Positions 7,941 through 62,043 of a DNA stretch of 64,000 bases are shown piece after piece. Under the pieces are notes generated by a model. It was not told the DNA's origin, did no database searches, and was given only the letters and a program-made list of their open reading frames with translations. Every line of letters begins with the position of its first letter. Position 1 is the stretch's first letter. The translations under genes and the position numbers were made by a program. The stretch comes from Styela clava (lineage: Eukaryota > Chordata > Ascidiacea > Stolidobranchia > Styelidae): the NCBI RefSeq assembly GCF_964204865.1, contig NC_135252.1:15831383-15895382 (forward strand). Direction: 5' to 3'.

Positions 7941-8281
7941 AGTCGAGTATCTTAACTATGAGCCAAGTAATCAGTAATGAAGGAGAATATAATCATATGA
8001 TCTACAATATTGAGCAGATAACAGCCATGGTTTAACAAGGATTCATCAACTGTTTTAACAATATAAGAGCTAACCACCACGACACAAAAGTACAAATATG
8101 TTTGGCAACTGCATTAGTGAAACAAAATGGAATCATATCATGTAAAATAGTGAGATAAATCACATCACCACCCCCTGCGAAAAAAGATCTCGAAGTATTG
8201 TTAAATATCGCAATACTCAATTTTTCCATGGTTCGTGTTAGTATATTTTTGAGGTTTTTGGTGCTTTTTTTCAATTTTCTG

Positions 8282-15010
<6,729 letters not shown>

Positions 15011-15394
15011 AACAAAACTATTAAACAGATCTACTGTCTGACTGTTGTAATGCAGTACCGTACAGCAAGCTGGGCTTATTAAAGTTTACAAAGTTCTGCC
15101 TACTATGGTCCAATTACGGAATTATTCATCAAAATTATCTTCTGTTAAAAATATGCGACACAGAAACAAGTCACAGAAGCCAGATTCCCGCGACACCGAG
15201 ATATTTCAGTTGGCTTGGCTGATTTTCTAATTCCTACATACTTCCAATATCATGTCGGTGTGACGTCACGTCTTCTACCGCACACGATAATGCTTCAGCG
15301 TACCAATGAGCATATATACATACATATACGGTACGAAATGAAGCATTATGATTTTGCCTTGTAATTAAATTAGATACGTGTATCTCTCTAAGGT

Positions 15395-17261: not shown

Positions 17262-17379
17262 GGGACTATTCACTTGGCTAACACAGTCAGTCCCCGAACT
17301 CATAATAGAACTATAATGTGAAAAATCTGAACAAAATTTGGTCATAACCCTAACCTGGTACACATACTACAGGAGTATC
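17262..17379. mobile_element. GGTGCTCC-family MITE relic
   Basis: Carries the family's internal words ('cacttggctaacacag', 'cagtccccgaactcataata', 'aaccctaacctggtacacatac') and a right end CTACAGGAGTATCC. The left end is lost, next to a poly-C tract at about 17213-17229, and no target duplication is visible. Confidence 0.65.
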
Positions 17380-18596: not shown

Positions 18597-21500
18597 TTAA
18601 GGAGAGAATGCTGGTGGTGGACCAGATGCAGAAAAATTGAAAGTAGTTGGCACATTAGTGGTGTTAAATTGATAACCTCCAGTCTTTTCGATTTTTTTAG
18701 ACTCTGCCTCTGCTTGCCGCTGGTCCGCAGTTGTGAAAACTTCCTGAAGGTTCTTCCTTTGATCGTCAGTCAAACCAGAAACAAGCTGATTATACCATCC
18801 ATTGTTATTTAATTCCAATTGTTTTAAGACTTGCTTGAAAATGAAATATTCACTGCCAACATTATCTTCATCATCAAAAGAAGATGCGTAAATTTCAAGC
18901 GGCGTCTCTCCATCACTGATATCACTGTCGCCATCAATACCATTTAAAGAACTCTTCTCCAGCATTTCTAAGTATTCAGCAGACTCTTCATCAACCTCAT
19001 CCTCGCTTGATTCAAGCTCCTCACGTTCATGATCACTCTCATCTTCTTCCTCATCAGAATTCGAGCTTTCACTGCTGTTCTCTTCCCCTCTACTTCTGTA
19101 AGCTTGAGTCAGTCCTTGCAACATTAAGATTAAAGAAGGTAAAATGTCTGGTGCAAGTTCAGATATGATTTTTGGTCGTTCCGCAGAATCAATCACAGTA
19201 CATAGGCCAAGTACAGATATCCGTCTATCATGAATTCCGAGAAAGCAATCTGCATCTTTAAGCCACTGGCGAAAAAATTGCTCAGTAACAGTTTCCGTTG
19301 TGTTTGGGAACTGCATGCTTTCCAATGTTTGAAAAAGTAAGGTGGGATTGTAATAAAGGGCAGCAATTACAACTTGAAGGCACATGGTTCGAAGTTCACT
19401 TGTTTTCACTTCTTTGGTGAGTCTTTCAAGAGCAAGCTGAACAAATGAAGGGATGCACTGGTCAATTTTTCCATGGCATTGCAAAATGATTACTTCCAGA
19501 AGTTTTACAGCATGACTTTCTGCATCTTCTCCATTTTGTTCTTCAAGAATTTTTTTGCACATTTCAAATACTGTTTCCATATTTTTTGTGTTTGACAAAA
19601 ATACATCTGTATCAACAGTGCAAAAGTTGTGCACGACAGGCATCATTTCGGAGAAATAATCAAAGCCGTCATCGTCGAAAATAACTTTAATCAATGGCAA
19701 TGCCTCCCACATTTGTGGTGAAATTGCTTGGCAAGTTAAAGAATACATTAACGATAAGATTTCTTCATAAAAATCCATAATTCTATTCTTCAAAACATGG
19801 GCAACCACAGGAACAACAATACTTTCTAATTGTACTGTAATATCTCTTTGTTCCTCCATTGTATCCAAAACTGTTTCAATTGTACTTAACACTCCCATAG
19901 CAGCCACTGATCTGTTGTCAGATGCCTCATCGTCATCATCTCCAGTACCATTGATTTGTCCATTTTCATCCGTTAATAGTTTGAAAAACGTCATCACCAA
20001 ACTCTGTGTTATGTCTACTGCATATGGTATCACTTGCTCGCAATAAAGACAAATAATTTTATGCACAACTGAAGTCAACTCATCATTCTCTGTTTCATGC
20101 ACAAGTTGAAGTAAACTCTGAATCATGACATTGATATAAGGTTCACAACGCTTCTCAGCTTTTTCCTTGTGCAACAGTAGAGTCTGAAGAGCAAAAGCAG
20201 CCTCAACTCGAACTGGAAGTTCAGGGTCATCAATAAGAAGTGTACGTATTCCATCAGCCACTGCAAATATATTCGAATCCTTTTTGAATGTGATTCGGCT
20301 GAAATGCTGAGTGACCCATACGGCTCTTGCTCTCATGTATCCAAGTGTACTCTTGTATTCTGGAATAACATGGGTAAAAAGCATGCTTTCTAGTTGACTT
20401 TTGTATACTTTTCTTTTTCTTAGGGTTGATGATAAAGATCCAATAATATGCAAAGCTCCTTCCTTGCGACGAGGTTCCGTTTTTGTTTCATTGGCAACCA
20501 GAACTTTATGACAAAAACCCATTGTTTTTTGCACAACTTGCTTTCTTTTAGTACAAGCGGACTGCAAGAAACACTGAGCTGCACTCGATGGAGAAAAGAA
20601 ATCTTCCTTGAAATCAAATCTTTCACGAACAAACTCATGTGGGTCATCGCTCCACAATTCTTCGTCTTTTTCTGAGAAACACATCAGAGGAAATATTACA
20701 TCTTTCAAAACTTCGTCATAAACTCCTTTCATGACTTTCCAAGTTTGAGAATGGCTAACTCCTTGTTCCAAAAATTGCATTGTCTGTTGTAAGACGCGAG
20801 GTGATACATATTTTCCCTTGCTGTAATCACCCAATACTTTCAGAAGAACATGAGTTGCTCCGACAGCGTACCTTCGCAAGAAAAATTCAGAAAATTGATT
20901 ATATTCTTGACTAACAGTCCCAGGACTACCATATCTTTCAAAAACTCTGGTTAAAATATGCAGAGCCCACTTTTTACATTTCCACCATGGTAAATCGGGT
21001 CTCTCTAATTCATCCACTTGTAGAGTTTCTTCAGGTGGTGCCTCTTCAATCACAATTTGAATGTATTTCATCCAGGTATCCAAAACTGCACCTTCAATCA
21101 ATTTGAGAGGCAGAGAATACTGTGTAAGAGCGTAAATCACTTTCAAACACTGCTTTTGAATAAGCACAGACTGAGCAGACCCATCATTGAGTGCATGCTG
21201 AAAAAGTTGTCCCAGAGCGGGTAGAAATATTTTCATTGCTTCCAATAATGGTACCCTCTCTTCTCGTTTCTTGTACTCATATTTTTTAACCAATTGATAC
21301 AAGGTCTGCAAAGCTCCCATCCATGTATTTGGATCACCTCCCAAGTAGTTGGCAATCTTGTCTATGATTCCTGGCCATCGCTCTGGAAAGTCTTCCCTAA
21401 TGATTTGATAAACAGTGACGCTCATTTGACTTCTGATAACTTCAGGAGCATGTATAATGGCCTCGACAATATTCTCTCTTATAATTGCTTTATCATTTTC

Positions 21501-21752
21501 ATGAATGAAAAAGACATCGGTAGATTCGTCATCTTCTGGGTCCTTTCTCCACCACTTGGTACACATATTTTTCATATAAATCGCACCAGCTTGCCTGACT
21601 GCCATTGGTATTTCTTCAGACATTACAATTTGCAATAGAAGAGGAGCAAATCCACTGATCTTGTGCATTTCATCTAGTTTGCTTTCTGCCTCTTGTCGAA
21701 GTGCTGGATGCATTGTCCCTTCAAGGATCTCAACAACTTTTTTTGGATCCAT
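18597..21752 (-). CDS. IPO7: Importin-7 (importin-beta family), intronless
   Basis: Nuclear import receptor that binds cargo (ribosomal proteins, histone H1, SMAD/ERK-type proteins in known homologues), Ran-GTP and nucleoporins through HEAT repeats. A single open frame gives 1051 aa (human IPO7 1038). The start is MDPKKVVEIL, which aligns with the family N-terminus MDPN; an in-frame ATG 11 codons upstream (21785) is not conserved. The importin-beta N-terminal domain lies at about residues 20-110, with VRQAGAIYMKN. Strong family landmarks follow, such as EDFPERWPGI and DLPWWKCKKWALHIL. Two acidic stretches are seen: a GDDDDEASD loop about two thirds along, and a long Ser/Glu/Asp tract near the C-terminus, as in IPO7/IPO8. 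The tail is FNFSASGPPP-rich. It is notable that 3.2 kb contains no intron in an intron-rich neighbourhood. No frameshift or stop is seen, so it looks functional. IPO8 is the alternative name, as the IPO7/8 split is vertebrate. Confidence 0.96.
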   Translation of the reverse strand: MDPKKVVEILEGTMHPALRQEAESKLDEMHKISGFAPLLLQIVMSEEIPMAVRQAGAIYMKNMCTKWWRKDPEDDESTDVFFIHENDKAIIRENIVEAIIHAPEVIRSQMSVTVYQIIREDFPERWPGIIDKIANYLGGDPNTWMGALQTLYQLVKKYEYKKREERVPLLEAMKIFLPALGQLFQHALNDGSAQSVLIQKQCLKVIYALTQYSLPLKLIEGAVLDTWMKYIQIVIEEAPPEETLQVDELERPDLPWWKCKKWALHILTRVFERYGSPGTVSQEYNQFSEFFLRRYAVGATHVLLKVLGDYSKGKYVSPRVLQQTMQFLEQGVSHSQTWKVMKGVYDEVLKDVIFPLMCFSEKDEELWSDDPHEFVRERFDFKEDFFSPSSAAQCFLQSACTKRKQVVQKTMGFCHKVLVANETKTEPRRKEGALHIIGSLSSTLRKRKVYKSQLESMLFTHVIPEYKSTLGYMRARAVWVTQHFSRITFKKDSNIFAVADGIRTLLIDDPELPVRVEAAFALQTLLLHKEKAEKRCEPYINVMIQSLLQLVHETENDELTSVVHKIICLYCEQVIPYAVDITQSLVMTFFKLLTDENGQINGTGDDDDEASDNRSVAAMGVLSTIETVLDTMEEQRDITVQLESIVVPVVAHVLKNRIMDFYEEILSLMYSLTCQAISPQMWEALPLIKVIFDDDGFDYFSEMMPVVHNFCTVDTDVFLSNTKNMETVFEMCKKILEEQNGEDAESHAVKLLEVIILQCHGKIDQCIPSFVQLALERLTKEVKTSELRTMCLQVVIAALYYNPTLLFQTLESMQFPNTTETVTEQFFRQWLKDADCFLGIHDRRISVLGLCTVIDSAERPKIISELAPDILPSLILMLQGLTQAYRSRGEENSSESSNSDEEEDESDHEREELESSEDEVDEESAEYLEMLEKSSLNGIDGDSDISDGETPLEIYASSFDDEDNVGSEYFIFKQVLKQLELNNNGWYNQLVSGLTDDQRKNLQEVFTTADQRQAEAESKKIEKTGGYQFNTTNVPTTFNFSASGPPPAFSP

Positions 21753-23386
21753 GACTATTGTGGTTTTGAGTTTTAAACCATACAAAACAGAATTTCAATT
21801 TTTTCTCCCTTTCTCAGGTAAATAAAAGTCAAAACTATTTTGTTAATATTGTAGTTGATAATAGCTGAAATTAAAACGTAGAATAATTTTAGATATGATG
21901 TGAGATTGCCTAAGTAATATGAAATTAGGGATTAAAATAAATTTTGGCATTTGAAATAAAAAAAAATTTATGGACCTATAGTAAGTCTGAGGGAAATCTT
22001 TATTAATATCTAAAAATGTAAAAAGGTTCCATATAAATTAACAGAAATACAATAAAATACAGTTTAATATAGATTTCAGATCATATGAATATTCTCAACA
22101 ACATATGTGTATTCAGACCATATTATTCCAAGGAATCTCCGAAAAAAGTATGATACAATTACATCTAGCATTGGCAATTTTTCTTCCTTCAGTAAATCGA
22201 ATTTTTTTTTTTGAAGAATCCAATGGTGACATTTTAGATTGCGCTTCCTTTTAGTTTGTTTCGCAGTTCTGGTCTGCTGATTTTTGCCGGTATGGAGGGC
22301 CAGACTGTCTCGTAAAGGAGAAATTTGCAATCACTGTTATAATTATGTAGCCTAATTCAGGTCTTTTAATGAAGGGGCTATTCTTGAAATCGGAAAACTG
22401 TGTTGTATTAAAATTATAGAAGAGAAAATAAACACAGAAAACGCTAAGTGATGCTAACAAGAAACAAGGTACCATACAGCTACCGTAATGTACAATGACA
22501 GATTGGATATTTTGCTCATATAGGCCTATTTATTTGTAGTTGGCCGGTCACAATACAGCAATAATTTTGTAAATCCAGTTAAACAGACACTGAGACATGA
22601 TGTAAATGTGACAATAACTAAATTCACATTACTGCATTAGCCTACCATGTTCCCGGTATCACACTATTTTTATGCTCTAGAATGCAGGAATGAGATTAGG
22701 CTAATTTTGCTAATTTCAATGCACCATTCAATTTCAGTGCACCATTCATCCAATAAAAACTGAAAAGACATGAAAGATAGATACAAAATTCCGCAATTGA
22801 ACCTTTTTTTTTCGGAATCTAGAAATCAGTACGCTACATGTAACTTATTGATTCTTTTGTTCTTTCGTTGCACAACCTGACACAGCTGCACAGTGACAAC
22901 TGATCAGTCCAAAATCTGCAAATTAATTTTGACAATTTACAGATTTAGCAGGTCTGCAGGTGTTCTAAAATATAAAGGCACAGTACTGTCAATTATTCTT
23001 TGTTCAACCCTATTATGTTTATTTATTTTATCAGCAGCAGCGCTGCAATATTAGAATACCTAATTCTACAGTAGTTCTATCTAACATTAAATATTCCTGT
23101 AATCAGACAACGAAAGACAAAAACGAGTTCATAATTTCTACGCGCGGAAACATTTCATGATAGTCATGTTTTCTCACGTGTAATTCCACGCGGAAAAATG
23201 AACTTGATTAGCGCAAATACAGTGAAGAGAACCAAAAGTATCAAGCATTTAAGTGCAATATTTGATAAAAACTGTTCCCGGCAACTCACAATAAGAACTT
23301 ATACATAATGCCCTTCAACCTCTTAGGTATTGCGCAGGATTTTTATCGCTCGCATACTACAAAATAAGTATAGCCTCACTTGCAAG
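21753..23386. other. Intergenic upstream of IPO7, no gene seen
   Basis: AT-rich spacer with probable promoter sequence for the minus-strand IPO7. No exon pattern or RNA gene was recognised. Confidence 0.4.
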
Positions 23387-30903: not shown

Positions 30904-38236
<7,333 letters not shown>

Positions 38237-39734: not shown

Positions 39735-39740
39735 TTTATT
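39735..39740 (-). terminator. Candidate poly(A) signal of sushi/vWA gene
   Basis: AATAAA on the minus strand about 210 bases past the stop at 39948. Motif only. Confidence 0.35.
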
Positions 39741-39947: not shown

Positions 39948-42900
39948 TCATACATTTCCACAATACAAAAAATAATCATAATATATTCCCACTTGCAATA
40001 GGACTGAAAACACTGCTGCTGCAATATTTACAGTTTTCCTTCTTGTACCTGTATCAAATTATAACAAAGTAGTTTACGGTGACTCTTCAAAATATGGCGT
40101 TTCATGTGTCTGACTGCTATATCCTCTAAACTTACAATGTGCAAAATATCAGAAATATTACAATGCGGATGAGGAGATAGGCATGGGATTTGAACTCGAG
40201 ATTTAACTTGCAATCATAGTTAAATCTAATGCTTCAATCCCAAGGCCGCCATACCCACTAAAGTTGAAACAGACTGTCGAAAAAAACAGCTTTTATAAAT
40301 TTCGCACATATGTTCGGTCAGAACATTAGGACTAACTATATGGATTATATCCATCACCCAGAATGGTTATAATGCCAAACTAAAAGAATTTTTCATAGTA
40401 AGGTATAAAAAAAAGCCTTATAAGAAATATCAAAACACTGCATACCAGAATCATCGATAATAACATCAGATTCCTCAAGATGACCTTCAATCTCTTCTTG
40501 AACATTTGCTATTGATGATCCAAGTTCTTCAAAACTTTCAACATCAATGATACTTCGAGTTGCTCCAGATATTTTTTGGAGTTCTGTTCTATCAAATTTC
40601 CCAATACCAATAGGTATTAGTTTGATGTCTGAAATGCAGAATTACTTTCATTAGAAGAAGTATACTAAATATTGGCAAAACTTAGTCTCATGAATGCAGT
40701 CTAAGCAAAAAATTTCGAATCGGGAATATCAAATATATTCTCATGGCACAATTGTTATATCTTCATGGTTATATATTGAATTATAAAATGTGGAGTTTCA
40801 TAAAACTGACGACGAGTATGAATGTTCAGAACCAGGGCAGTGCAGTCAAGAAAAACTCAAACTCCAGGTAGAGAAAAATTACACTCTTACTCCGACACTT
40901 TACTCAGACTCCGAACTCAAATTTTGATGGCGAAAACTTCCTCGTATGTGAGCTTTCTTTAATAGAATGTTAAAAATGCTAAGTGAACTTTTTGAGTTTT
41001 TGTAGAAAACCAATTTTAGTGGAAACATGCCAAATACAGACCGCACAGGAACATAAGCAAATAAAAACAATAAAAATTACTCTTATTCCTAGCTTCTTCA
41101 GCAGGACCTTCTACATCATCATTTGATTTTCCGTCAGTGACAATTATCATAACTCTATCTGATTCAAGTCTTCCAAGAACTTCAAAGTGTTTTGTAGCCC
41201 TTGATATTGCATCCCCCGTAGCCGTACATCCTTTCAAATGACCGATATTCAAAATCTTTTGCTGGACTTCATAGAAAGAATATTCTGATAAATCAAACTC
41301 AATCTGAAAACAAAAATATAGGAAATAAAATAGAAAAAATTGACTTTTATGACATGTATGCTACAGACAAAGAAATCACGAATAAAAATTTGAAACATGT
41401 TTAGGAATGCTATATCACAGCATATAATGACAACAGGGAGCACTAACGACAGTAAATCAAACATGGACTTTTGTTTCAGCCTGAGCATGATTGGAAATAA
41501 ACCACCCTGTTCAAATTAACATAAGTGTGGGTGGAAATGATGGGAATCTGTATAACTTCAAGTTGAATTTGGACAAATTGATGGTTCAGCTAATATGGAA
41601 GTCTAAATTGAAGGTTACTGCAAATCAAATATAACGTGTAAGATGTATAATCAATTTTCACAAATCTACTCACAGCATATTTTGGTATTAATTCACCAGA
41701 ATCACACATGAATGTAGCTTCTCCACTGTACTGTATCAAGCCAACCTAAACATAATAACACATTACCAATGTATTGCAATGGAGATATCTTTGAAACATG
41801 ATAAATAAAGTTTCTTTTTTGTAAATTGAACCAACTGCAATTTGACAACGTGAAGATATGCATAGTATATCTACTAACTTTCTGTAGTGATAACGCTATT
41901 TATAAGCATACATTGGAGTCTCTTAACCAGTGTTGTATAGGACAAGTCATCTAAACGGACTCAGATTCATTATCAACTAACTGCCAGTAAGATTAATCCA
42001 GCTATTGATTCAACTTCGGACTCGGGAGTCCAGTAACTAGACTTAACTCGTGACTCGGGGTTCGAGGACTTCTACTGCTCTTAACTATACATAATAGAGA
42101 AAGCTCTATCGAAACCAGTTGAGTTGTAATGCGACTTTTCAAATTATTTATCCTTGTCTGGCTGCTACAATGATAAAACCTATGCTTATACCCATGTTCC
42201 TCCACTGTCTATTGATCCTTTATATTCGTTCAATATCTCAAGTATATATTCCTTCATCTGAACAAACTCTTTCATTTGTAAACTTCCTGATCCATCCATA
42301 ACAACCATCAAATCTAACTGACAATTATCAGATTTACAAGCTGCAAAAATTTTAAATCAAGATGTACTAATCTCATAGGAAGGATTTAGGATGAGAAATT
42401 TATCAGTTGGAATTACGCAAGACCAACTAACTAACTATCCTCCCATTTTCCTTATTTTAGTTCTATTACGAGTTCGGGGACTGTCTGTGTAAGCCAAGTG
42501 AATACACCCCCTGCCCATAGTAATCAGTCCGTGTACAAACTTGATGTACAGTAGGCGAATAAAATTAGTTACCTCCATATTGGTACACAAACTTCTGGAG
42601 CGCCGTTTTAAGGCTAATGGTTAGCATTAATTGTGATGAGTTAACAAGCGAGGAAACATAGTTGATGCCATCACATACCTTCACAGATAGGTGGATCATC
42701 ACTCCATTGTACCATTCCATCAGGCATAGGAGTTCCACAATTTATTATACCATTTCCAGTTATTTCATAGCCTTTGTCGCAAGAAAAATGACATTGTGAT
42801 CCAAATGTGTTGTTTCGAATACATTGCATTTGCCCATTCGGCGGTGCAATAAATGCAGGTAAACAATGCAAGTCTAGAATAAAGTTGGAGACTTTTATAC

Positions 42901-45900
42901 AAGATGTAAAGTATAGAATGTCATATGGATCGAATTCAATATATTAATGCAATAAGAAACTGACAACACAATGACTCTATCATATGGCGTATGTGAGCGT
43001 GATGATCCAACAACTGGCCCAAGCTTTAGCCTTAACTGTGTTGGCAACGCCGATTTCACATCTTGTGTGCTAATTCGATGCCCATCACATCACCAAGGAT
43101 GTTTGTTATCAATTGGGTAGAGATTCTGGTAATTCCTCACATATTGTTAGATATTAGTGGCAGCTTGTAAGACCAATTGATCATTCATCAATCCAATAAT
43201 GGGAATTATTAACAAATTTAATTTCTCCAGATGGACTCGTATGATGGAGATGTCAAAGCCGAACCACCACAATGTCAAAAGGTCGAAAATTTTTATCGTG
43301 CATATTATCCAATATTTAAACCTCCAACTAATTGCAACTTATCATGAAACTAAATGTTTATAGCAAATATCGGTTAATAATCAAATAACTTTGAACATTG
43401 GGATTGCAATAATTAATCGAATTGAGGAATCAATATTCAATGCTTTTCTTGGTACAAAACTCAACAATTAAATAATGGAGTAGCGTAGGACCATTTACCA
43501 TGGGATTTTCATTTCCAGGGGAAAAGTCGATAAGACATCCAAAACCTATGAATAACCACGGCGAAGGGTCCAACAATCCTCTCTAGCAAAATTATCCCAA
43601 CGGGAGTTAAACTCGAGAAACCACATAAGGTAATCAGAGGCTTGATGGCAAACGTATTCCTAATGCTTAGCATTATGCACCATCTACCGAGACTTTCTTG
43701 TTACTCTCTGTACCGATATGTAAGATGAATCAGTGTGATGCATGACTTTCAAACCTCGCAATATTGACTCTTTTTTACCTTTGAGACAGAGTGGAGATTC
43801 GGAACTCCATTCTCCTTCGCCATCTCTGTTAGGATCGCCACAAAATGCTTGCGCATGGCCAATCAAGAAATAATCAGGTATGCAGAAGTATTTACACACA
43901 GATGGAAATAGATTACCATTGGTACAACTCATAAAACCATCTTTGGGTGGAGGTCTCTCAGAACATCGAATCTCTGTCAAAATGGAACATTTTCACTCAA
44001 TTACAGCTGTACTTTTTTCATTTTTTCTAGGAATATAATGATTCTGAAAGTTCTTAGCAAAGCACATATCTTTTGCATATTTTGCATTATGACTAAGTCA
44101 CGCTATAAAAATTTATTTTCTTTTTGAGACTGTGGCTTCCAACCTGGGGGATCGCGGCCCCTTTGAGCGGGAATATTTTCGCAGCCCATCACATTTATTA
44201 TGAACAGTTAATAGCAAGAAAATTTAACAGTATATGAATATGCTATATATTGCTTTTTTAAATAAAAATTTAGTAAAAAACGTTAAAGGGTTTGCGGCAT
44301 GTTAATAAGGGTCTTAAGATGTCCATGTGGAATCGCAAGAAAAAAAAATTTTCGACTGAAACTAAGTAAGCTTATTTAAAGGTACCCACAATGCAACAAA
44401 AATATTCAAATTTAACAGCCCTGACAATTGGTATTTCGTGAAAAATTGTAATATAAAGCCCCACGATGAAATGCCCATTTAAGTCCACACCCAATAATGG
44501 CTTGATACAGACTCGGTCCATTCGTCGTTAAAATTTACTGTTTTAAACTTATAACATGATCAGGATTCTAGCAGATGGGTACATAAAATGTCCTGCAACC
44601 TTCGTGATATGTATATATATATATATATATTCTCAATTTTTCCGATATGCAACACTCCATACCAGAAACCTCTTTTATACATCTTACAACAATAAAATAG
44701 TAATCAAAAACACAACACACTAGGAGAATAAATTCAAACCTTTGCATTTGGGTAAAGGAGAAATCCAATCTACAGTACCATCCTTATCTGGATCTCCACA
44801 CAGAACTGTTGCATTTCCGACAAGAGAATACCCTCTATCACAAGACACAGAACATATTTCATTAAAAACAGGTTTTTCACTTGGATCTTGCCGACAATTT
44901 ATGAATCCAAATTTCATGGGACCAGCACATTTAGAAAAACCTGTAGTAAGAAAATAGATGCAAATAGACTCACTCGAGGTTGAGTGTTTATTGAACTTCA
45001 CCAGCATGTCCATACATCTGGTTATTTCAACTGGCTATTCCCATGTACCACCTAGACTAGCTACTTTATATTCGATCTCAAATTTCATACCTGGGCAATC
45101 AATTTTGGTCAAAAGATTTGTTACATGAAAAGAAGCCGAATGAAATAGTTGTATCTCTGGAACATAGATGATTGATTCTGGTGAGTTTGCAATTTGTTGA
45201 AAGTTGATTATACTTGCATTTGCTACCCCAATAATTGCAAATTGGAAACCTATAATGCAAAAGGCAAGTTTAGGAAGAAACAACAAATTCAGTCCCAAAT
45301 CAATTTTCATATCATTTCTGGAACAATTTAAAAATAAAGCTTGATTAAGCTTCAGTTTCTCTAAAATATTATGACTTATGACTATGACATTCTGACACCG
45401 ACAAATTCCAATTTTGAAATCAGCTTTAAAAACGATCCAAACTCTTAATCAGAATCTCTAGCCCAGGTACTCTTAACTGTAGCTAATGACCAAAGAAAAT
45501 TGAAAAACATTTACACTGTTTTGATTTTGAAAATTGAGAACATAATTTCTACATAGAAGGGTACCTGCTTCTTTTGCCATAGTAACAGCTCCATGAAAAT
45601 CATCAATCGTTGAGCCAGCCAGCATTAACAATACAACAGATGTTGCATGTGGTCTTCTCTGCGATACTCCATAATGAACAGATTGGGCTAAAGCTCCTCC
45701 CAAATGTAAACATCCACCAATAGGTTTAAGTGAACGAATCTTTTGTTGCAACAACGGTAATTTTATATTTCGGAATAATAATGAAAGCTGAAATTATAGT
45801 TGGTCTGTTTAGTATGTGACCGTTATACTTGTTAAAGGTGCATGTCGCACAACTGTGTCCTAGGTCAGTAATATCTTGAACATGTATCCTTTCTCTGTTA

Positions 45901-48900
45901 TAATGTTAAAATATTATGCAGATACTGTTACATTTTAAGAGAAATAAACATTCAGCTGAGTACCATGTATCAGGGATGGCCAAAACTGAAAATTTTGATA
46001 TTCCAAATACATACTAAACTAATGTTTTAAGAATAATGTATCGTTTCTATAGTGATTACATCTGTCATTTGGATTGTCAAATAAAAAGTAACAAAATATT
46101 TTTGTTGTTGGCTGGTAATATGGAAAAACCCGCATTTTTGGTACTTAAATTTGTTCTCAGTAATTCAGAGTCAGCTTATTGGGCAGAAAATTTGATTAAT
46201 AATTTCATAAGCATACCTCATTTACAGAAAATGAGTTTCTTGGATCACACTGTGGTTCTTTACTGCCAGCGAGAGCTATAGAAACCCATGCTGACCCGGC
46301 ATCGAATGCAGTTCCTACTTCTTGTAGAAGATGTGTCAACCATTCCATCATTTCGGCAAAATGCCATGGCTTCAAATTTGATGAGGCATCAATGAGAATA
46401 AAGATATCAATAAGCATTTTGCCGCAACCTTTGTTGACAATAAGAAAACCAAATATATTATATGTGCATTAGACAAAAATTGAGTAAAAAATCATTTCAT
46501 TGAAATCATAACTATCTTTGGCATCACAATTAAAAATCTCAGTTTGAGCCCCATGCGCACCCCATTACCTAGGTTGAGAATGGAATTGAGCACGCAATGA
46601 TGAACTGGTAAAATTGTGGTCCTTCAAAAATATAGCAATAAGTGGATGGATACTTGTGGTCTAGTTCCGAGTGAAAAATCAGAAAAAAGTATCAAAATTT
46701 ATAGAACTATAGACATGGTTAGACTTCTTTATCATTTCTAAGTAAATAATAATTAGGGTTTAAATTCCAAATGTATGTCAATAATTTTCCTTCGGAATAA
46801 GGTCTCAAAGTAAACCTATCCTTCTTGGCAAAATTTGACTCTTTCATGGACGTGGTGGCTTGGTGGGTAGAGTGTTAGAGTTAACTATGATGGAATCGGA
46901 GACTGATATTTCATACCGAAGCAGAATAATTCTGGACATACCCAACTCATGTAGTTCCTCACAAAACAATAGCAACTTGTGCAGAGCCTTGTTCGGGGCA
47001 AAAGGCATATATGTAAATATGTCATATCAAAAAACTACTTACCGAAACACGGCTGAAGATTCTTGCTCCAGAAGCTAGCACCTCCAACTTCCACTCCAGC
47101 ACAAATAAATTCATGTTGTTTGCCAGCTTCTGATGATTCTGTGCAAGTTAGCTGACATTTTGATCCAGGATTGTTAAGATCATTACAAGAAACCTTTTCT
47201 GTCATTACATCAAGAGGTGGAAGACATGGACCAGCTGAATAAAATTGAATAATGGTGAAATTTAGCGTTGCTGTAATGATCCACAACAGCAAATGCTGAT
47301 TGCCATGCAAGAATTCGGAAGAATCGTGAGGAAAATTAGAAAGAGGATCGCTTTACGCCCCCATCAGGTACATGCATTAATAAGCGACTGCTTTGCTATT
47401 CCCATACCCAACATGTACTGGGAACCGGAAGAGTGCCCTTGGTTAGCCATATATTTCAGCCATATCATTGTTCTTTCCTCCCCCGGTATAAATAGGAAAA
47501 TTCTATCCTGAGAAGCATCCTCATTGTCTTTATAGAATAGGATTTAAATACTTAAAAAACGATAAAAACACTCAATCACATGGCGAACCACAGCCTCTCA
47601 TCCAATTACCAGTCCATGTTGAGTATGGGATTAGTTAGCCAGTTATTCGTTTTCGACGTATGGAATTGATGGTGGAGGAAGCCGTAACTGACCAGCAGTT
47701 TCAGAACTACTCGCGGCAGCAAGAAGTCCATCAATCAAGAAGTGCCAAGTGTATTTGAACGTGTAACAGGGTGCGCCTGAGACTTTATTATAACACCATA
47801 CCTTTGCATTTGGGAATATCTCCATCCCATTGTCCAGTCTTTTTACATGTTATTGGATCAGAAGATGACGGTTGAAATCCTGTTCTACATGAAATTGTGC
47901 AAGATATTTCAGGTGCAATAGGTCCATCACATTCCAACTTGCCATTTTGAATTTGAGGTTCTTCACATGTTGTGACTGAAAATATGGAATGATGGGGTAG
48001 GACCAAAATGCATTTATAATTGAATCGATTTTAAGATGTTTTTCAAATTATTAAATTTGACACAAAATTGATGGCAATATTCAAACACAGCATTCTTTTC
48101 TTTAGCAAGCAATACACACAACTTGCCACAAAAAATTCACATATCTCATTCTCAACTCTAAAGTGCACATATGAATGAGTTGAATGTTAGCGTGGTAAGC
48201 TTAAACAAGGCTTTAACGTGAAGTCTAGGATCTCAAATGCTAAATAACTCATTCAACCAAACACAGCGATAATGACACAAATCTACCCTTATGTGAACAG
48301 GAAACAAGAGAATAATGTACTATTAAAGAGACATGAAAGTTGCATGCCAGTAGCTATAAGGCGATTAGCTGAGCAATGAGCTTGATGCAAAAAAGGACGG
48401 CTGAGTCATACAGAATAAAGTCTTCAGATGAATTAAAATAAAACAGTAAAGTTTTAGGTGAAATATCTGGTTCCATAAAATTTAAAAAGCACAAATAAAA
48501 TTCATAGCTTTCTAGATACTTCTTCCATCTTTGAGTAATGAAAATTTTATATTCAATGGCCCACTAGTTGCGGAAAAAGGCAGTTTCCCCCAGCAAGAAC
48601 AACAACAACAATAATGCCCATTAGTAAAAAAATATAATGTTAATGTTGTCACTCACAGTAGCAATTAGGTAGTTCATGTGACCATTCTCCATTTCCAGTT
48701 CCACTTGGATCAGTACAGTTGACCTTCGTTACATTCCCATCCAACTCTGCACCACTGTCACATTGAAACTGGCAGACGGAACCAAGGTTGTTATCATCAG
48801 TACACATAAATAAAGTACTAACTGTTAATTGTGCAGGATCTATCTCAGGGCAGTGAACAGGAATTGCTGTAAGAAAGTGGTATGAATTCTGAATTACCGT

Positions 48901-51900
48901 AGTTTATATCAGTTTAGAAGTTCAAGTCATAAAACATTACTTTCTGCAATACAAAGCATGAAAAAAAATTTTGCTTTGATCCAAAATGTCCACAATGTCA
49001 CAAATATTGACAGATATGAAAAGAAAAATTTGATTTAAAATTTCATAAATATATTGAAAGTCCTGAGTAGTAAAAAGGGCGGCCCAGAAGTATGTGTACC
49101 AATATGGAGGTAACTTTTTCGCCTACATTACATCATGTGTTGTAAAGGGGCGGAAATCTATAGGCAGGGGTATATTCACTTGGCTAACACAGACAGGAAA
49201 ATCTGAATAAAATTATGGCCTAATCCCAACCTGGTACACATACAACGGGAGTACCGTAAAAAGTATAAATAATAACAAAAACCGATATACCAGTGCATGT
49301 TGGTGGTTGATTATCCCATGCCCAAGTTTCATTGCTTCCTGTGCAAGTCACCAACACATTCACTTCTGATATCAAGTAATAATCATTACATGAAAAACTA
49401 CAAACTGAATTTTCAGTGTTAGCAGCAGTGCAGGTAACAACACCATTATCTATTGTTTCAATAAGAGGTTCACATTCATCTAAAAAATACAATATTTTGT
49501 TATTTATTAATTTTAAACTTGGCCAAATGGTCAAGATCTATGGGCAAATACTCTGCAACCTGAACACTTGTGGCTCTAGAGACTTATTTTGCCCCGAAGA
49601 GGGAGGCCAAAACTATGATACACAAATTTGATACTTGATCGAACCATAAACATGTCTAGGGAAGTACTGTGCAGTTTAAACACTTGGGGCACTAGAGACT
49701 TTTTTAAAAGATTTTCAGTCGCACAACTATTTTGAATGTTGAATAATTTTATTTATTTCCTTTTTATTCTTAATTTATTTTTCACAACGGTTGAAATCAA
49801 ATTGTCGTCAACGTCAAGTATATACAACGTGAAGTGGTTTAAACATTGGAGCCCAGTAATAGCATCATGAAATGGTGAACCAACTAAGTTTAGCCTACGT
49901 GAAGTCAAGTTGCCTCATTTTAGAATTTTTCGAAATCGTGTATTTTTATATGGTTTTTGCTCCGAAAAAGACTTTGCAAAAGCAGAAACTGCAAATCCTG
50001 CCACCATTGTTTATACTAACGCTCTGACCACCAGGCTACCATCCTACAAATACTCAATTATTTTCAGCAACAGCCTTCCAGATAATATAGTTATACAAGA
50101 TGTATGGTGATGTGCCAGAAGTTGAGAAAAAAATTTTAGAACCCAATACCAAATCCAACTCACACACGCATGTTGGTGAGAAATCCCAATCCTGCTCTCC
50201 AGGAGTAGTTTCTACACAAGTGATCTCGATTTGACGATCAGGTACCTTTCCCTCCTCCGCACATCTGAAGTTAGAGCAGACCGAGTGGAGACTAGAACCA
50301 TCAGTACAATCAGCATATCCATAAAAATGGTAAGCGTTGCATAGTCGAAGAACTAAAAACGTATTTATTTCATTAGTATATACATGTGGATAACATAAAT
50401 AAGGTACCCGCATGATTTGAGCACATGAACCAGTGACATGTTAAAAGTGTGTGCTCATGCATATTTCTGCTACTATTTTTGGAAGGAACAGAATCTTCCT
50501 GGTTCAGCATTGCCTGCCTGCCCAATTTATTACCCCCTGGGTGAGGTGATGGGCATGGGATTTGAACCCCATATTGGTAACTGCAATGCCAACACAATTA
50601 AGTTCGCCCAACACCACGCTTCATTAACCATTGGGCCACCACGCCAACCTAATCAAATTGTGCCAAATTGTTGTATCCTTATGTACAACTATTAGTATTT
50701 TTAAAAGATGAAAATCCCAAACCGGTAAGAATTCATGGATTAGCAGCCAGTAGCAATGAAAAAAGAATAGTTCAGTGTGGACGTCAATTACTATGGCCAT
50801 CCTTGCAGCAACAAGATCAATAAAAAATAGGACCTCCTGAAGTATGCGCACCAAGATGGCGCACAACCTAACCTCAGGTTGTGTACTAGGTTAGGGTTCA
50901 GGTTGTGCGACATCTTGCTGCGCATACTTCAGGAGCACCAAAAAATATTTATGTCCCCAGAATATACAAATGTGATATCGTTTTATTTTTTTATATAATG
51001 TTGCTTAAATCAGTTAATAAATGACAGCTTAGTGATTTACCTAAAAATGCACACCCATTTCAAGAACATTAGTTAACACTGTACTGCCAATTAAAGAGGT
51101 TTTGTAGAACAGCGAACATGAATTGTTCTGAATCAGGACAGTATAATATAAGCTCCATTAAAAACTTCTTCTCGTATAGATATACTTAAAAATGAACAAA
51201 ATGAAACTACCCATTGCCCTTGAGGAAATAACAACTTTCAAATATTTTTTTGAAAGAAATAAGTCACTTCAATAAGATTTTGTTATGCTGTATCCTGGTT
51301 TACGGCTGCCAATTTGTCATATTTTGCGAGCTAGTCCCACTACTAGAACTTTTCTTTTTTAGTTTTACCTTTTGCATGCAAAGCCTTAGAACCCAGAAAT
51401 CTTTCCTTGGATGGGAATTACTAGCTTATGCTATATATTACCATGACAAACGGTTGGGTCATCGCTCCAAGTATTTCCATTTTCACAAACGATCGGATCT
51501 AGGTTGCTCAAATAAAATCCCCCATCACAGTCAAAAGTACATATAGATCCTGGTATGAATTCATTGCTGCAAGACATTGTACCATTACCCGGTGTAGTGA
51601 TTGGTGGACAACTATTTCCATTTACATTATCTGGAACACAAATAAGGTAAATAACATTCACAGCTGTATAAGAAAGATAACATAAAAACTCATCGTAACA
51701 GTGAGCTGAAACATGAATTACCTAATGGATTTGGAGAAAATAGGCAGATAAAATTGTACACAATAAATCGTACCATTTCACATTATTAAAATTGCAGTGA
51801 AAGATTATCATCCATTGAATGATAATTTGTTATTACATTGTTGCATCATATTATAACTATTCGGATAGGCTAAGATCTCCATACGTATAAAAAGGAAAGG

Positions 51901-52710
51901 CGATAAGACAAAACAATCAAATAGCAAACTAAGGCCCTCTTTATCCAGTCCACATACAGGATGAAAATAGTTATCCAGTTATTCTTTTCAGAAGCATAGA
52001 CCTGCCGATGAAGAAAGCTGAAATCACAAGTAACAGCTATGTAAAGTTGTGAACTGCCCTATGGTGCAAGGTGCTCAGCAGTCCGCTAGCAAATACTCAT
52101 CCACCACGAGAATAATAGCAAAAACCCGCAGAGAATAATCAAAGGCGCAATGGCAAGCATGTGTGATGTCCCATACGCCGAGCCATTTCCATAGCTCTAT
52201 TTGACTGACAGAAAACAACTTGGTGCAATAATCAATATTTATACCAGAGGCAAGGCAAAGTAATGTTAATTTATATACTTGTACAAACTGGATGAATCTC
52301 AGACCAAGTGTCGTTGCCATCACGATCTATGCATTTCAAGAAAGCTGAACCATGCATCTCCATACCAGAATCACAGACAAATGCACAAACTGATCCCTGT
52401 TCCAATCCATCAGTGCATGTGTAGAAAGTATGATCAGTCTCAGGAATTTCTAAGCAATCACCTAAATATATCAAAGAAAACCCACTGCTGTTATCTAATT
52501 TTTACAATAAAAGTTGATAAAATTGCGTATTTGAGCTGAATAGGCATTGCTTCAAGAGTAAATGAAACACACGACTAAATGTCAAGCGTACAACTGAAAA
52601 TGAAGCTTGCATTTCAGGTAACATAGACCAATAAATTTTTTACCCTCAATTTTAGTGATTAATACTGCGATGAAGAAAGTACTTCCAAACAAACAATTCC
52701 ACAAAGACAT
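39948..52710 (-). CDS. Secreted/surface protein with 10 sushi and 2 vWA domains, 19 exons
   Basis: Exons (minus): 52710-52644, 52461-52279, 51630-51442, 50352-50164, 49479-49291, 48866-48657, 47975-47802, 47234-47043, 46428-46217, 45787-45565, 45249-45091, 44940-44740, 43973-43779, 42873-42679, 42340-42192, 41745-41674, 41303-41081, 40628-40446, 40048-39948. These give 1101 aa. Order: signal peptide (about 1-20); sushi 1-7, one exon each; vWA1 (465-662); sushi 8-10 (663-859); vWA2 (860-1068); then DDSGTRRK and a hydrophobic C-terminus, either a transmembrane helix or a GPI signal. All sushi modules have six cysteines, as in selectins, and phase 1-1 introns. vWA2 keeps the metal site (D875-x-S877-x-S879, T960, D990); vWA1 has Asn482, Leu562 and Ala592 instead. 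Sushi plus vWA recalls factor B/C2 and SVEP1, but there is no protease, EGF or pentraxin domain. A cell-surface or extracellular binding role is inferred; partner unknown. Confidence 0.9.
40130..40255 (-). repeat. SINE-B copy in intron 18 of sushi/vWA gene
   Basis: Complemented, it shows 'tatggcggccttggg' (A-box region) and GAGTTCAAATCCCATGCC (B box), with the 'ttaactatgattgcaagtt' middle shared with other SINE-B copies. Confidence 0.65.
42433..42604. mobile_element. GGTGCTCC-family MITE relic in intron 14
   Basis: Shares 'cgagttcggggactgtctg', 'gccaagtgaatacaccccc' and 'ctccatattggtacacaa' with the 12215 copy and ends CTTCTGGAGCGCC. The left end is diverged, with no clear duplication. Confidence 0.7.
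43515..43690 (-). repeat. SINE-A, degraded copy in intron 13
   Basis: Complemented, it contains the head 'atgctaagcattaggaatacg', a mutated B box and 'aggattgttgg' from the body. The middle of the body has deletions. Old insertion. Confidence 0.6.
44142..44330 (+). mobile_element. hAT-like end in intron 12
   Basis: 'gtggcttccaacctggggg' followed by 'tcgcggcccc' has the CAGnGGTTC(C)CAACCTGGGG-type hAT terminus with expected subterminal composition. The opposite end could not be fixed, so the right edge is arbitrary. Confidence 0.45.
44612..44631. repeat. (TA)n microsatellite
   Basis: About ten TA units in intron 12 of the sushi/vWA gene. Confidence 0.85.
46848..46985 (+). repeat. SINE-B, diverged copy in intron 8
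   Basis: The head 'cgtggtggcttggtgggtagagtg' with 'gagttaactatgatgg' resembles SINE-B. The B box is badly mutated and the 3' body only loosely matches the 13366 copy. Confidence 0.5.
47515..47725 (-). repeat. SINE-A, degraded copy in intron 7
   Basis: Complemented, it contains the 'tggttcgccatgtg', 'gactggtaattgg' and 'cttcctccaccatcaattcc' body blocks in the same order as the 56568 copy. The tRNA-like head is missing or replaced. Confidence 0.6.
49078..49255. mobile_element. GGTGCTCC-family MITE, 8-bp TSD, 36 bp from an exon
   Basis: A 178-bp copy between perfect direct repeats GTAAAAAG (49070-49077, 49256-49263). It runs from GGCGGCCCAGAAGTATGTG to ACAACGGGAGTACC, with internal 'cacttggctaacacagaca' and 'cctggtacacat'. 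It sits just inside the 5' end of intron 5, 35 bases from the splice donor of sushi exon 5. Confidence 0.85.
50430..50646 (-). mobile_element. SINE-B, best-preserved copy
   Basis: Complemented, the head reads GGCGTGGTGGCCCAATGG (A box) and GGGTTCAAATCC (B box, 50563-50574) at tRNA spacing. A body follows with 'atcacctcacccaggggg' and a tail running to about 50430. It lies in intron 3. The head is unlike SINE-A, so this is a second tRNA-derived family. Confidence 0.7.
50830..50939. mobile_element. GGTGCTCC-family palindromic MITE, 110 bp, 8-bp TSD
   Basis: Flanked by perfect AAAAAATA (50822-50829, 50940-50947). It is nearly one long inverted repeat: GGACCTCCTGAAGTATGCG on the left pairs with CGCATACTTCAGGAGCACC on the right, including 'gatggcgcacaacct' / 'aggttgtgcgacatc'. 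In RNA it would form a stem of about 45 bp within the intron 3 transcript. Confidence 0.88.
51885..52195 (-). repeat. SINE-A, strongly degraded copy in intron 2
   Basis: Complemented, it shows 'atggctcggcgtatggga', '(t)gattattctctgcgggtt' and 'tgctgagcaccttg' in SINE-A order, with many substitutions. Confidence 0.5.
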
Positions 52711-58944: not shown

Positions 58945-60772
58945 TTACACTTCAACAGCATCAGAAATCAAATTGATTAATGAATTGCTGGCTTGTGCCA
59001 GGTCACTGATAGAAATCCGACCACGCTGAGTGATATACTTAGCAACTGCTTTGAGTTCTTCATTAGAAATATAAATAAATTTACCACGATCATCAATAAC
59101 ACCAGTTAATATCTCATCTTTGAGCATTGTCTGAACTCTATCGATCGCATCTTGCGTTCTTAGACCAAAATGTGATGCAAGATCTTCTAAAAGAACAACT
59201 TTCTTCTTTTTAACAAAGTCCACAAATTCCATTAGCATGTTTTGGCTTTCTGATTCTGAATTTATGACTTGATGTCCTTCTTCATCTACTGAAAACATAG
59301 CCTTAAGTTCCAAATATTCTTCATGCTCTTTGCGTTCTTTTTCTTCTTGCTCTTTCCGTTTTTCCTCTGCAATTTTCTCTTCTTCTTTCAATCTTTTCTC
59401 ATCTTCAAGTTTTTGCCTTTCTTCTCTCTCTGCTTGCTCCTTTTTTCTTTCTTCTCTTTCCAATGCCTCTTGTTCTCTCATTCGTTTTCTCTCTTCTTTT
59501 TCTTGTAATTTTTTCATCTTTTTGGCTCCAATCTTCCCTTCTGTACTGGCAAATGTCTCTTCTTGTTCATCATTTTCCGATTCATTTTCATGTCTGGCTC
59601 CTGTAATGAAATTGTCTCACATGAGCACAAAAGTCAAAAAATACTAGATTGAAGAGTGATTGATATTGTCTCAGTATTAGCTCCAAGATATTTTGGTACA
59701 TGTTCACTAGACGCCGTAAGTACTTCTAGTTATCGTGGCAAAAAAATTCATCCAAAAATGACGTCACTACGACATCACAATCACGTCATAGAGGTTACCA
59801 AATAAAAGCTACGATCGCCCGATATGACATCTCTGCCGACGATGATGAACTCGCTAACGCCAGGAATATCTCTCATATCGGGATCGCTACAACGAGAAAA
59901 CGAAAGAAATAGTTTGCTTGATTTCGAGTGATCGCCTATGCGTTTTGGACGACAATCCGTATTCTTTGACGGGTCTTATTTCGTCATTGTGACATTGTGG
60001 TGACGTAATTTTTGGATGATATAGTCAGGTGGAGATTAGACATGGCAACCAGATGTACAGCGTTTAGTGAACTAGCTTCAATATCTTGATCTGTTATTTA
60101 TTCCGCGTAAGGTCAGTTAGTTGAGGGTGGTTAGGGTCGGGAAGTAACATTGGGGTGAAAATTTAATTCATTTTAATCTGAGTAGCCAAGATATGTATCT
60201 CCTAAACTTGAGCAACAACCACCATTTATTCAGGTATTCTCATTGCCACTCGAGTAGAAATAATATGAGCTGATTCTGATAGTCATATTTCATCTCAATG
60301 TCATTGACCTATATAAAACATTTTATACATCTTGTCGCGATTCGTGTTGGTACACTCGATGGCTGTATACGATACCTACCCTGTAATCAGGCATTAGATT
60401 GAATGATTCAAAGTATGATTAAACATTGTCGTTCATTTTTTTTTAGTTTTATGATAAATATGGAATCATGTCCTCTATCTGTCTATTCTGCTATTGAAAT
60501 CAGATAGAAGTGGAACCAGTTCACCACGACAACATAAACTAGCATACAATTATTCACCAAATAAAAATAATGGAAATACCTTGAGCATGCTGCTGAATTC
60601 CCATTCTAACATTTCTGCGTCTTCTTCCGCCAGCTCGGTTACCCACAGCCTGAGCAGCATCCTGTCGCTGATTTTCCTGCTCTTGCACAGGTTTATCAGC
60701 CTTTGTTCGAGTGATAAACCACAACAAAACAGCAACAAAAGCTGCCGCTACGACATAAACTATGGGGTCCAT
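58945..60772 (-). CDS. DDRGK1: DDRGK domain-containing protein 1 (UFMylation adaptor)
   Basis: ER-anchored subunit of the UFL1 ligase complex that attaches UFM1 to targets such as ribosomal proteins and supports ER-phagy. Exons 60772-60580 and 59600-58945 give 282 aa (human 314). An N-terminal membrane anchor ([15 protein letters not shown], about 5-19) faces a cytosolic basic patch (GGRRRRNVR). Then come [16 protein letters not shown] and a long Lys/Glu-rich coiled coil ending [10 protein letters not shown] winged-helix part with [10 protein letters not shown] and LRTQDAIDR follows, then the signature DDRGK at 234-238 in [12 protein letters not shown] and the C-terminal [24 protein letters not shown] was chosen as the start because it aligns with the human N-terminus; an in-frame ATG 8 codons upstream is possible. 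The single intron holds a TIR element. It faces EFCAB10 head-to-head across 854 bp. Confidence 0.95.
59748..60019. mobile_element. TIR element in DDRGK1 intron
   Basis: Inverted termini TCATCCAAAAATGACGTCAC (left) and, complemented from the right, TCATCCAAAAATTACGTCAC match at 19 of 20, with weaker pairing for about 20 more bases. The interior of 230 bp is non-coding and rich in 'gatcg' and 'tgacgt' words. No clear target duplication is visible, so superfamily and exact ends are open. Confidence 0.65.
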
Positions 60773-61626
60773 TCGTTCTTGGCTTACATTAAACAAAATA
60801 TACCGTAAATGACTCAGACTGCTCCAGCAAGTGCAGCGCTTGCTTGCGATCTAGAAAATAATGATAGTGGCAATGGCACCGAAATCCTGAAATCTATGAC
60901 GTAGAAAGCACGCCACAGCGGACACACCAGAAATTAGAAAATATTATCTTCAAAATTGAAATTTTAACTTAACTTTAGAGTGATTTTATTTTTTTTTTAA
61001 CTTTACTTGAATATTTAAATTTTTTCTAACGCTAAACGAGTGGTTAAATCTGATGTAAACTCAAACCAAGACTCAGTGGTCCGTAAAGGAGCTGTGGTTG
61101 CCATAGCAGCATCCGATTTACAACACCAAATCAAAATAAAAGAGTTTGCGTGTGGTTTTTACTTCATCCTGTAATATGTTGTGTTGAAGATGTACCGTGG
61201 TCACATGGCGTACCAATCTGTTAGCATTATAGTCTACTAAAAATTATTTGTCTCTATTTGCACTGTCGAGTTATTAGGTTCTCAACTTAAACAGGATTTA
61301 ATGCTACCATGTGCAGACGCGAGTAGAATACCGTATATTTATATCAGTTCCGGTTCTGAAAAATGATTCAACTCAACATATGAGCTGGAAAATGTTCAAT
61401 TTTGCGAATTATGCTAATGAACATAAGGTTACATCTCCATCGGAAAACATAGTAGCGTTCCATATTATTGTAATCGTTAAATGTATATAGTTTTTTCACA
61501 TCGAACGTGTGAAAATCATTATGGAAAAAGTTTACAATTGTTTTCTCCTTGTTGATTTTTTGCGTCAATTCTTAGATTCATTTCATGGGTTTATACTGCA
61601 TACACTATCATAAAATTTGCATAAAA
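60773..61626. other. Divergent promoter region DDRGK1 / EFCAB10
   Basis: 854 bp between two divergently transcribed start codons. No repeats were recognised and no TATA box is convincing. It may serve as a shared promoter. Confidence 0.4.
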
Positions 61627-62043
61627 ATGAGTGGAGAACCAAACATAAATCAGCGAGAGGTCGATACGAACACCTACCTCCAGCGACATCGAATACTTGA
61701 TCTATTTAACAACATGACATCACTGCTAATTTACAACAAACCAGAAGAACCAAGAGAATTTTTAATTGAACAGCTTGAGAAATTGAAAGTAGCTCAACAA
61801 AGTGGAATGTATTATCCTTGCTTGTTCGATGAATCGAATCTTCATGCTATTTTTGGTATGCTTGATCCAACAAAGAGAGGATTTATATCAAAAGACCAGT
61901 ACTGCGAAGCTTTGAAAACAATTGGTGTAAAGGACTTTGAATTGCTACCAACTGGTGCAGAAATCGATAAGATTACAATAGATACATTTTTACGAGAAGC
62001 AAAGAAAGGACTGGCAAAATATTCTGCCACTTTCAAAGTTTAA
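61627..62043 (+). CDS. EFCAB10: EF-hand calcium-binding domain protein 10
   Basis: Small protein of ciliated and flagellated cells by family association. A single exon gives 138 aa. The start MSGEPN was chosen over an in-frame ATG 14 codons upstream (61585) because the family begins close to the docking domain. Residues about 17-55 (YLQRHRILDLFNNMTSLLIY, then KPEEPREFLIEQLEKLK) form the RIIa-like dimerisation/docking fold with the P-x-x-FL-x-x-L pattern. Residues 70-100 form one EF-hand, with loop DPTKRGFISKDQ at 80-91. Loop position 12 is Gln instead of Glu and position 5 is Arg, so calcium binding is doubtful. No intron is present, unlike its neighbours. AATAAA is at 62378. Confidence 0.9.
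   Translation: MSGEPNINQREVDTNTYLQRHRILDLFNNMTSLLIYNKPEEPREFLIEQLEKLKVAQQSGMYYPCLFDESNLHAIFGMLDPTKRGFISKDQYCEALKTIGVKDFELLPTGAEIDKITIDTFLREAKKGLAKYSATFKV

Follow-up and report, generated by a model that had tools for sequence, protein, structure and literature searches.

What kind of protein is encoded by the long series of sushi and vWA exons on the minus strand of a 64,000-nucleotide stretch of the genome of the ascidian Styela clava (NCBI RefSeq assembly GCF_964204865.1, contig NC_135252.1, positions 15,831,383 to 15,895,382; hereafter the window, in which positions are counted from 1), and does it belong to one of the known families that combine these two domains? Based on the comparison with a second locus on the same chromosome, sushi(n)-vWA-sushi3-vWA looks like the layout of a real small family with two loci in this genome. 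As for its function, a tethered adhesion or recognition protein is preferred, at even chances, to a matrix protein or a complement-type receptor.

Rebuilt from the minus strand, the gene runs from an ATG at 52710 to the end of the stop codon at 39948, and comprises 19 exons that join in one frame into 1101 amino acids. All 18 introns have GT-AG borders, the exon phases are compatible throughout, and there is no internal stop, so that the reconstruction agrees with the preliminary description of the locus, a reading of the bare letters which had proposed the same exon number and protein length. Each of the ten sushi exons is symmetric (1-1), and the domain order is signal peptide, seven sushi, vWA1, three sushi, vWA2 and a hydrophobic tail. 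An in-frame TGA (52749-52747) lies upstream of the ATG in the same 5' exon, and the GC content is 0.386 in exons vs 0.346 in introns. The features of the gene are as follows, with window positions; vWA residues refer to the metal-ion-dependent adhesion site (MIDAS), of which DxSxS is a part.

52644..52710, minus strand: exon 1, ATG and signal peptide
52279..52461, minus strand: exon 2, sushi 1, six Cys
51442..51630, minus strand: exon 3, sushi 2, six Cys
50164..50352, minus strand: exon 4, sushi 3, six Cys; no Pfam Sushi match when scored alone
49291..49479, minus strand: exon 5, sushi 4, slightly under the Pfam cut-off
48657..48866, minus strand: exon 6, sushi 5
47802..47975, minus strand: exon 7, sushi 6, first exon of the block shared with the paralog
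47043..47234, minus strand: exon 8, sushi 7; no Pfam Sushi match when scored alone, paralog counterpart present
46217..46428, minus strand: exon 9, first part of vWA1; DASSN, the final Ser of DxSxS replaced
45565..45787, minus strand: exon 10, middle of vWA1; MIDAS Thr to Leu and Asp to Ala
45091..45249, minus strand: exon 11, end of vWA1
44740..44940, minus strand: exon 12, sushi 8
43779..43973, minus strand: exon 13, sushi 9, slightly under the Pfam cut-off
42679..42873, minus strand: exon 14, sushi 10
42192..42340, minus strand: exon 15, first part of vWA2; DGSGS intact
41674..41745, minus strand: exon 16, part of vWA2 bearing an extra Cys
41081..41303, minus strand: exon 17, vWA2; MIDAS Thr (CTATGD) and Asp (VTDG)
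40446..40628, minus strand: exon 18, end of vWA2
39948..40048, minus strand: exon 19, basic residues, hydrophobic tail and stop; the least secure exon
39735..39740, minus strand: candidate poly(A) signal AATAAA, about 200 nt past the stop

A genome search with the window protein identified a paralogous exon set on the same chromosome, at a distance of about 3.1 Mb. At C3:12,718,718-12,710,960, 13 exons match exons 7-19 of the window gene in order and phase; seven of these (9, 10 and 13-17) have identical lengths in the two loci, and the length differences of the remaining six are divisible by three. The splice sites of the paralog were placed using the window model as a guide. Identity amounts to 282 of 735 aligned residues (38%), and the differences at codon positions 1, 2 and 3 number 362, 254 and 422, with 71 of 112 fourfold sites differing. 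Changes are thus fewest at the second codon position, the pattern expected for a protein under selection. Because the paralog repeats the last 13 exons in the same phases, across both vWA domains, the 19 exons very probably constitute one gene, as the preliminary description had proposed. That two adjoining genes or a pseudogene had been chained artificially is scarcely credible in view of this block, and was rejected on that ground; the open frame of the window gene and the scarcity of second-position changes speak against it as well.

Sushi exons are far from limited to the shared block in the paralog locus. Of the 62 sushi hits recorded there, three lie between the vWA domains and two elsewhere in the shared block; the remaining 57 are located above this block and extend to C3:12,788,191, where the outermost hits are weak. 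AG and GT sites in phase 1-1 can be chosen for 60 of the 62, by what is a lenient test. Several four-exon units appear near-identical by eye, and point to recent amplification. The whole locus (C3:12,710,960-12,788,191, minus strand) is possibly one very large or variable gene, and as such a natural place to seek individual variation. In this sequence comparison, the exon phases and order are the same in the two family members over the 13 C-terminal exons, and the hit numbers argue that the length of the sushi arm differs between them. No third locus of the family was present among the first-look candidates scored genome-wide. The layout was at first described as unusual, and the literature surveyed, mostly outside subscription papers and in the portions available, indeed names no family with exactly this layout; it is, however, not a single oddity, since a second locus shares the C-terminal block. 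As a separate observation, C-type-lectin-like exons occur among the upstream exons of the paralog locus, at about 12.774-12.782 Mb, with one match of 26.4 bits (cut-off 22.6), obtained with a query of three hand-joined open reading frame pieces, and others of 20.7 and 16.1 bits, below the cut-off.

The domain content of the window protein was assessed with Pfam. The whole protein scores 142.8 bits for VWA over two stretches and 123.4 bits for Sushi over eight, and vWA1 and vWA2 scored alone reach 51.6 and 100.2 bits, respectively. Among the matches at E <= 1, VWA, Sushi and VWA_2 (over vWA2) pass the curated cut-off, and DUF1194 is sub-threshold. EGF, pentraxin, trypsin and CUB domains were not found at this level, and neither were C-type lectin, FG-GAP or other integrin parts. 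Because EGF, pentraxin, trypsin and CUB domains were not found, the window protein is not SVEP1, factor B or CSMD, which upholds its initial separation from factor B/C2 and SVEP1. Exons downstream that would add EGF, pentraxin or trypsin domains were likewise not found: the stop codon and the AATAAA close the gene, and five minus-strand open reading frames beyond it, a subset of those present there, gave no match above the cut-off. None of the 27 pentraxin matches in the genome falls inside the window, and the only one listed for this chromosome lies at 18.28 Mb, with the window at 15.83-15.90 Mb. Rfam gave no match in the window, and a scan with NCBIfam was uninformative.

The sushi modules depart from the usual type, which has four cysteines. 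All ten sushi exons carry six, with gaps of approximately 12-9-3-13 and a last gap of 12-17, and a tryptophan ahead of the last cysteine; the six cysteines and one tryptophan are invariant columns across all ten, including exons 4 and 8. When scored alone against the Pfam cut-off of 20.7 bits, six of the ten exons pass, two fall just under (19.9 and 19.8 bits), and exons 4 and 8 give no Sushi match, exon 4 instead matching a zinc finger below the cut-off of that family. AlphaFold models of exons 8 and 4, made for single exons aligned with the other nine and not for the whole spliced protein, are all-beta with mean predicted local distance difference test scores of 81.5 and 83.0, i.e., of fair confidence, and the top match of exon 8 among the paralog sushi is the one at the corresponding place. 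Pfam and the invariant columns together bear out the ten sushi and two vWA domains, in the order first proposed. A strict six-Cys pattern occurs eight times in the gene region and nowhere else in the window, and 200 first-order Markov simulations of the gene region produced none. Other loci share the six-Cys type: 53 of 60 paralog exons fit it, and counted by search-hit borders, which trim some exons, the fit is 9/10 in the window, 49/61 at C3, 11/16 in an array at C4 and 3/19 at C1. In a residue-by-residue alignment, made for exon 3, the extra cysteine pair of this exon aligns with the extra pair of both E-selectin sushi, where its spacing is three residues longer; E-selectin ranks 5th among the best 60 of 80 matches for exon 3.

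The two vWA domains of the gene are not equivalent at the sequence level, vWA1 being without most of the MIDAS (residues as given in PMC4237329). In the window protein, DxSxS of vWA1 reads DASSN, and the Thr and Asp are replaced by Leu and Ala, so that three of five MIDAS residues are changed. The paralog vWA1 has DGSQK, Thr to Ser and Asp to Gly, which amounts to two of five lost and a Thr to Ser replacement, where the Ser might still be able to hold a metal ion. In vWA2, all five residues (DGSGS, CTATG and TDG) are kept in both loci. An extra cysteine pair is invariant in all four vWA domains of the two loci, and exons 10 and 17 have the same length, 223 bases; these shared features suggest an origin of one vWA domain from the other through intragenic duplication.

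As for relatives of the vWA domains, the nine PDB matches of vWA1 are to collagen VI and VWF only, and the best 60 of 126 matches of vWA2 are to collagen VI, mussel thread matrix protein, VWF and integrin I domains. A derivation of vWA2 from factor B is not supported, factor B/C2 being absent from those best 60 of 126. Among the 39 candidates scored from this genome, the one outside the family that comes closest to vWA2 is a vWA exon at C1:22.82 Mb (41% over 74 residues, E 9.5e-11); the next-best has an E value of 1.3e-3. Downstream in the C1 locus are matches to FG-GAP (17.4 bits) and an integrin Ig-like domain (18.7 bits), both below cut-off, and C1:22,817,932-22,826,000 (plus strand) probably encodes an I domain-containing integrin alpha subunit. 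The extra cysteine pair is present in the vWA domain of the C1 locus, but absent from those of L001 and L002; of eight other vWA loci, these two alone had alignments that reached across that loop. Intron positions common to the vWA domains of the window gene and the C1 integrin-like gene were not used, because many vWA exons in this genome end at similar profile positions. In Ciona, eight integrin alpha chains are reported to retain the MIDAS (PMC1145181). L001 (C19:6.352-6.354 Mb) is itself a different sushi/vWA mosaic, a long open frame in which an EGF-like stretch interrupts the sushi and a vWA domain follows; all but the vWA domain was read by eye.

A signal peptide and a hydrophobic C-terminus were both part of the initial proposal, and both are present, the tail exon being the least secure part. 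Stretches of 19 residues with a mean hydropathy above 1.5 occur only at the head and the tail of the window protein, and the acceptor of exon 19 is the sole one of 74 AG sites within 1.5 kb that gives a tail of at least 18 amino acids with a hydropathy of at least 1.9. Provided that exon 19 is right, the sequence speaks for a protein of the secretory pathway that ends in a hydrophobic stretch and lacks a cytoplasmic tail. This end looks suited to a glycosylphosphatidylinositol (GPI) anchor, with the reservation that exon 19 is a weak exon and that the tail of the paralog is ambiguous.

Taken together, the predicted features are consistent, at a level that we judge to be evenly balanced, with a membrane-tethered and perhaps GPI-anchored adhesion or recognition protein, in which vWA2 would be a metal-dependent ligand binder. 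The protein would enter the secretory pathway as one chain and be held at the cell surface by its short hydrophobic tail; with no cytoplasmic part, a GPI signal would fit better than a signalling receptor. The first seven six-Cys sushi may form an extended outer arm, and the conserved work would be done by the membrane-near block vWA1 - sushi x3 - vWA2. Because this core is conserved, vWA2 is argued to be the ligand-binding part: with its MIDAS intact, it could use Mg2+ to engage an acidic residue on a protein ligand, in analogy to integrin alpha-I domains, whereas vWA1, which has mostly lost its metal site, may provide a structural or metal-independent contact. The role would be to mediate cell-cell or cell-matrix adhesion or recognition. 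The sequence itself establishes the gene model, the domain order, the six-Cys sushi, the unlike vWA pair of both loci and the paralog block; tether, ligand binding, cell type and function are our inference.

Several observations weigh against this proposal. The acceptor of exon 19 is weak, with pyrimidines at 6 of the 12 preceding bases, and the paralog tail aligns poorly (4 of 28 identical) and has more hydrophobic alternatives. The assignment of the C1 locus to the integrins draws on Pfam matches under the curated cut-offs, and many secreted matrix proteins carry sushi and vWA domains without an anchor. Furthermore, a profile of the ten sushi finds complement receptors first among solved structures, with E-selectin 26th among the best 60 of 105.

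The matrix proteins lead to an alternative that we consider rather unlikely but worth weighing, namely a secreted structural protein of the tunic, basement membrane or egg coat, with the vWA domains as assembly modules and no receptor role. It would agree with the weakness of the tail exon, and with the best solved vWA relatives, collagen VI alpha-3, mussel proximal thread matrix protein 1 and VWF A, which come ahead of integrin I domains. In addition, the Oikopleura house protein oik35 has a vWA domain, and complement control protein (CCP) modules occur among house proteins (PMC3390340). Weighing against such a protein are the hydrophobic C-terminus right before the stop, unique among the AG sites considered, and the proximity of vWA2 to a probable integrin alpha-I domain in the same genome.

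The sushi profile, whose best solved matches are CR1, CR2, factor H, CD46 and CD55 (best 60 of 105), instead raises the possibility of a complement-type regulator or receptor of hemocytes with a sushi arm that binds C3 fragments. Two tunicate proteins point in the same direction: g13310 of Botrylloides, with multiple sushi and vWA, which marks phagocyte-like blood cells (PMC12212465), and vCRL1, a Ciona sushi protein with a likely role in the blood system (PMC9265791). The profile matches, however, reflect the sushi fold in general, E-selectin is of the six-Cys type found here, there is no trypsin domain, and vWA2 shows no link to factor B/C2 among its best 60 of 126 PDB matches, which makes this explanation an unlikely one. 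Less probable still is a larval adhesion or metamorphosis factor similar to Ciona Ci-sushi (P-selectin-like) and vwa1c. Two Ciona genes, KH.C11.274 (Ci-sushi, P-selectin-like) and KH.C4.450 (called SVEP1), are listed with decreasing expression at mid-tail regression (PMC8495957), and vwa1c is expressed in the papillae (PMC4109947); these genes are likened to the window gene by name and description.

The preferred tethered adhesion or recognition protein thus retains, from the initial suggestion of a surface receptor possibly active in immunity, a plausible surface role; for the immune part, the g13310 parallel is suggestive only. A more speculative extension, which we hold to be doubtful, is a receptor family specific to tunicates: a copy of an integrin-like I domain would have given rise to the vWA pair, with a working metal site in one domain but not in the other, flanking three sushi and carried by an arm of six-Cys sushi. 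The arm of the paralog, with its 62 sushi hits and near-identical units, might then vary between individuals, and the locus would be a candidate for self/non-self or pathogen recognition by blood cells.

The genes that neighbour the family member in the window are possible synteny markers.

58948-59616, minus strand: DDRGK protein
61576-62040, plus strand: EFCAB10-like
35162-35494, plus strand: cytochrome P450 exon
18600-21794, minus strand: importin-beta-like long frame
14756-15085, minus strand: kinase-like exon, kinase match below cut-off

An interspersed repeat of about 70 bases occurs in the window at 12276-12349, 42464-42537 and 17262-17326, and by eye also at approximately 8100-8160 of the C1 locus (L039). 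It is found in introns and between genes in both orientations, and is likely a short mobile element. Elsewhere, exons matching cellulose synthase (26.6 bits against a cut-off of 24.7) and GH6 (35.4 bits against 27), each slightly above its threshold, are found on the same strand of C9, separated by 2 kb. Fusion of these two genes is a mark of tunicates, and by this test the genome looks like that of a tunicate.

Compared with known systems, the window protein resembles SVEP1/polydom in combining a sushi array and vWA in one secreted-pathway protein. In SVEP1/polydom, the vWA domain is N-terminal and precedes the sushi array, whereas the signal peptide of the window protein is followed by sushi, and its two vWA domains are internal and C-terminal. 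Since EGF and pentraxin domains were also not found, membership was rejected. Tunicate genes called SVEP1 have been described (PMC8495957, PMC9953650), and SVEP1 and P-selectin are reported from an ascidian endostyle (PMC9953650). In the present genome, pentraxin and vWA exons occur in the same region at C4:19.34-19.58 Mb, which is a place to seek its true SVEP1 relatives. As for factor B/C2, three sushi directly before a vWA domain recur in sushi 8-10 - vWA2, but the window protein has ten sushi and two vWA domains, and its lack of a C-terminal trypsin domain led us to reject this family as well.

Selectins share the six-Cys sushi, including the alignment of the extra cysteine pair of exon 3 with that of E-selectin, on which the six-Cys point rests; the available text of a selectin review (PMC7355470) does not state the number of cysteines per sushi. 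Unlike selectins, the window gene has no detected N-terminal C-type lectin or EGF domain, lectin-like exons being seen in the locus of the paralog instead, and selectin membership was rejected on this basis. Similarly, vWA2 has a full MIDAS and an extra cysteine pair in common with the probable integrin alpha-I domain of this genome, but no FG-GAP propeller of an integrin alpha chain was found in the window protein. CSMD proteins have many sushi alternating with CUB domains, and were rejected because no CUB was found.

Among tunicate proteins, vCRL1 of Ciona is also a sushi receptor-like protein, for which the accessible text mentions only sushi/CCP and no vWA (PMC9265791, PMC5465252). Halocynthia HrSMLP1 (PMC6916515) and Botryllus fester (PMC12065747) were set aside, as they are described with other domains. 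The nearest printed parallel found is g13310 of Botrylloides diegensis ("CSMD3 ortholog"), described as having multiple sushi and vWA and as a marker of circulating phagocyte-like cells (PMC12212465), a likeness by description that is suggestive only. Sushi/vWA mosaics are already known in tunicates, printed under names such as SVEP1, P-selectin and CSMD3 (PMC8495957, PMC9953650, PMC12212465), and one of them may prove to be the window gene. As a separate family, its conserved core of a vWA domain mostly without metal site, three sushi and a vWA domain with metal site is a testable unit, with D875 as the residue to mutate, and would bear on the transfer of integrin-type I domains from one protein to another around the base of the chordates.

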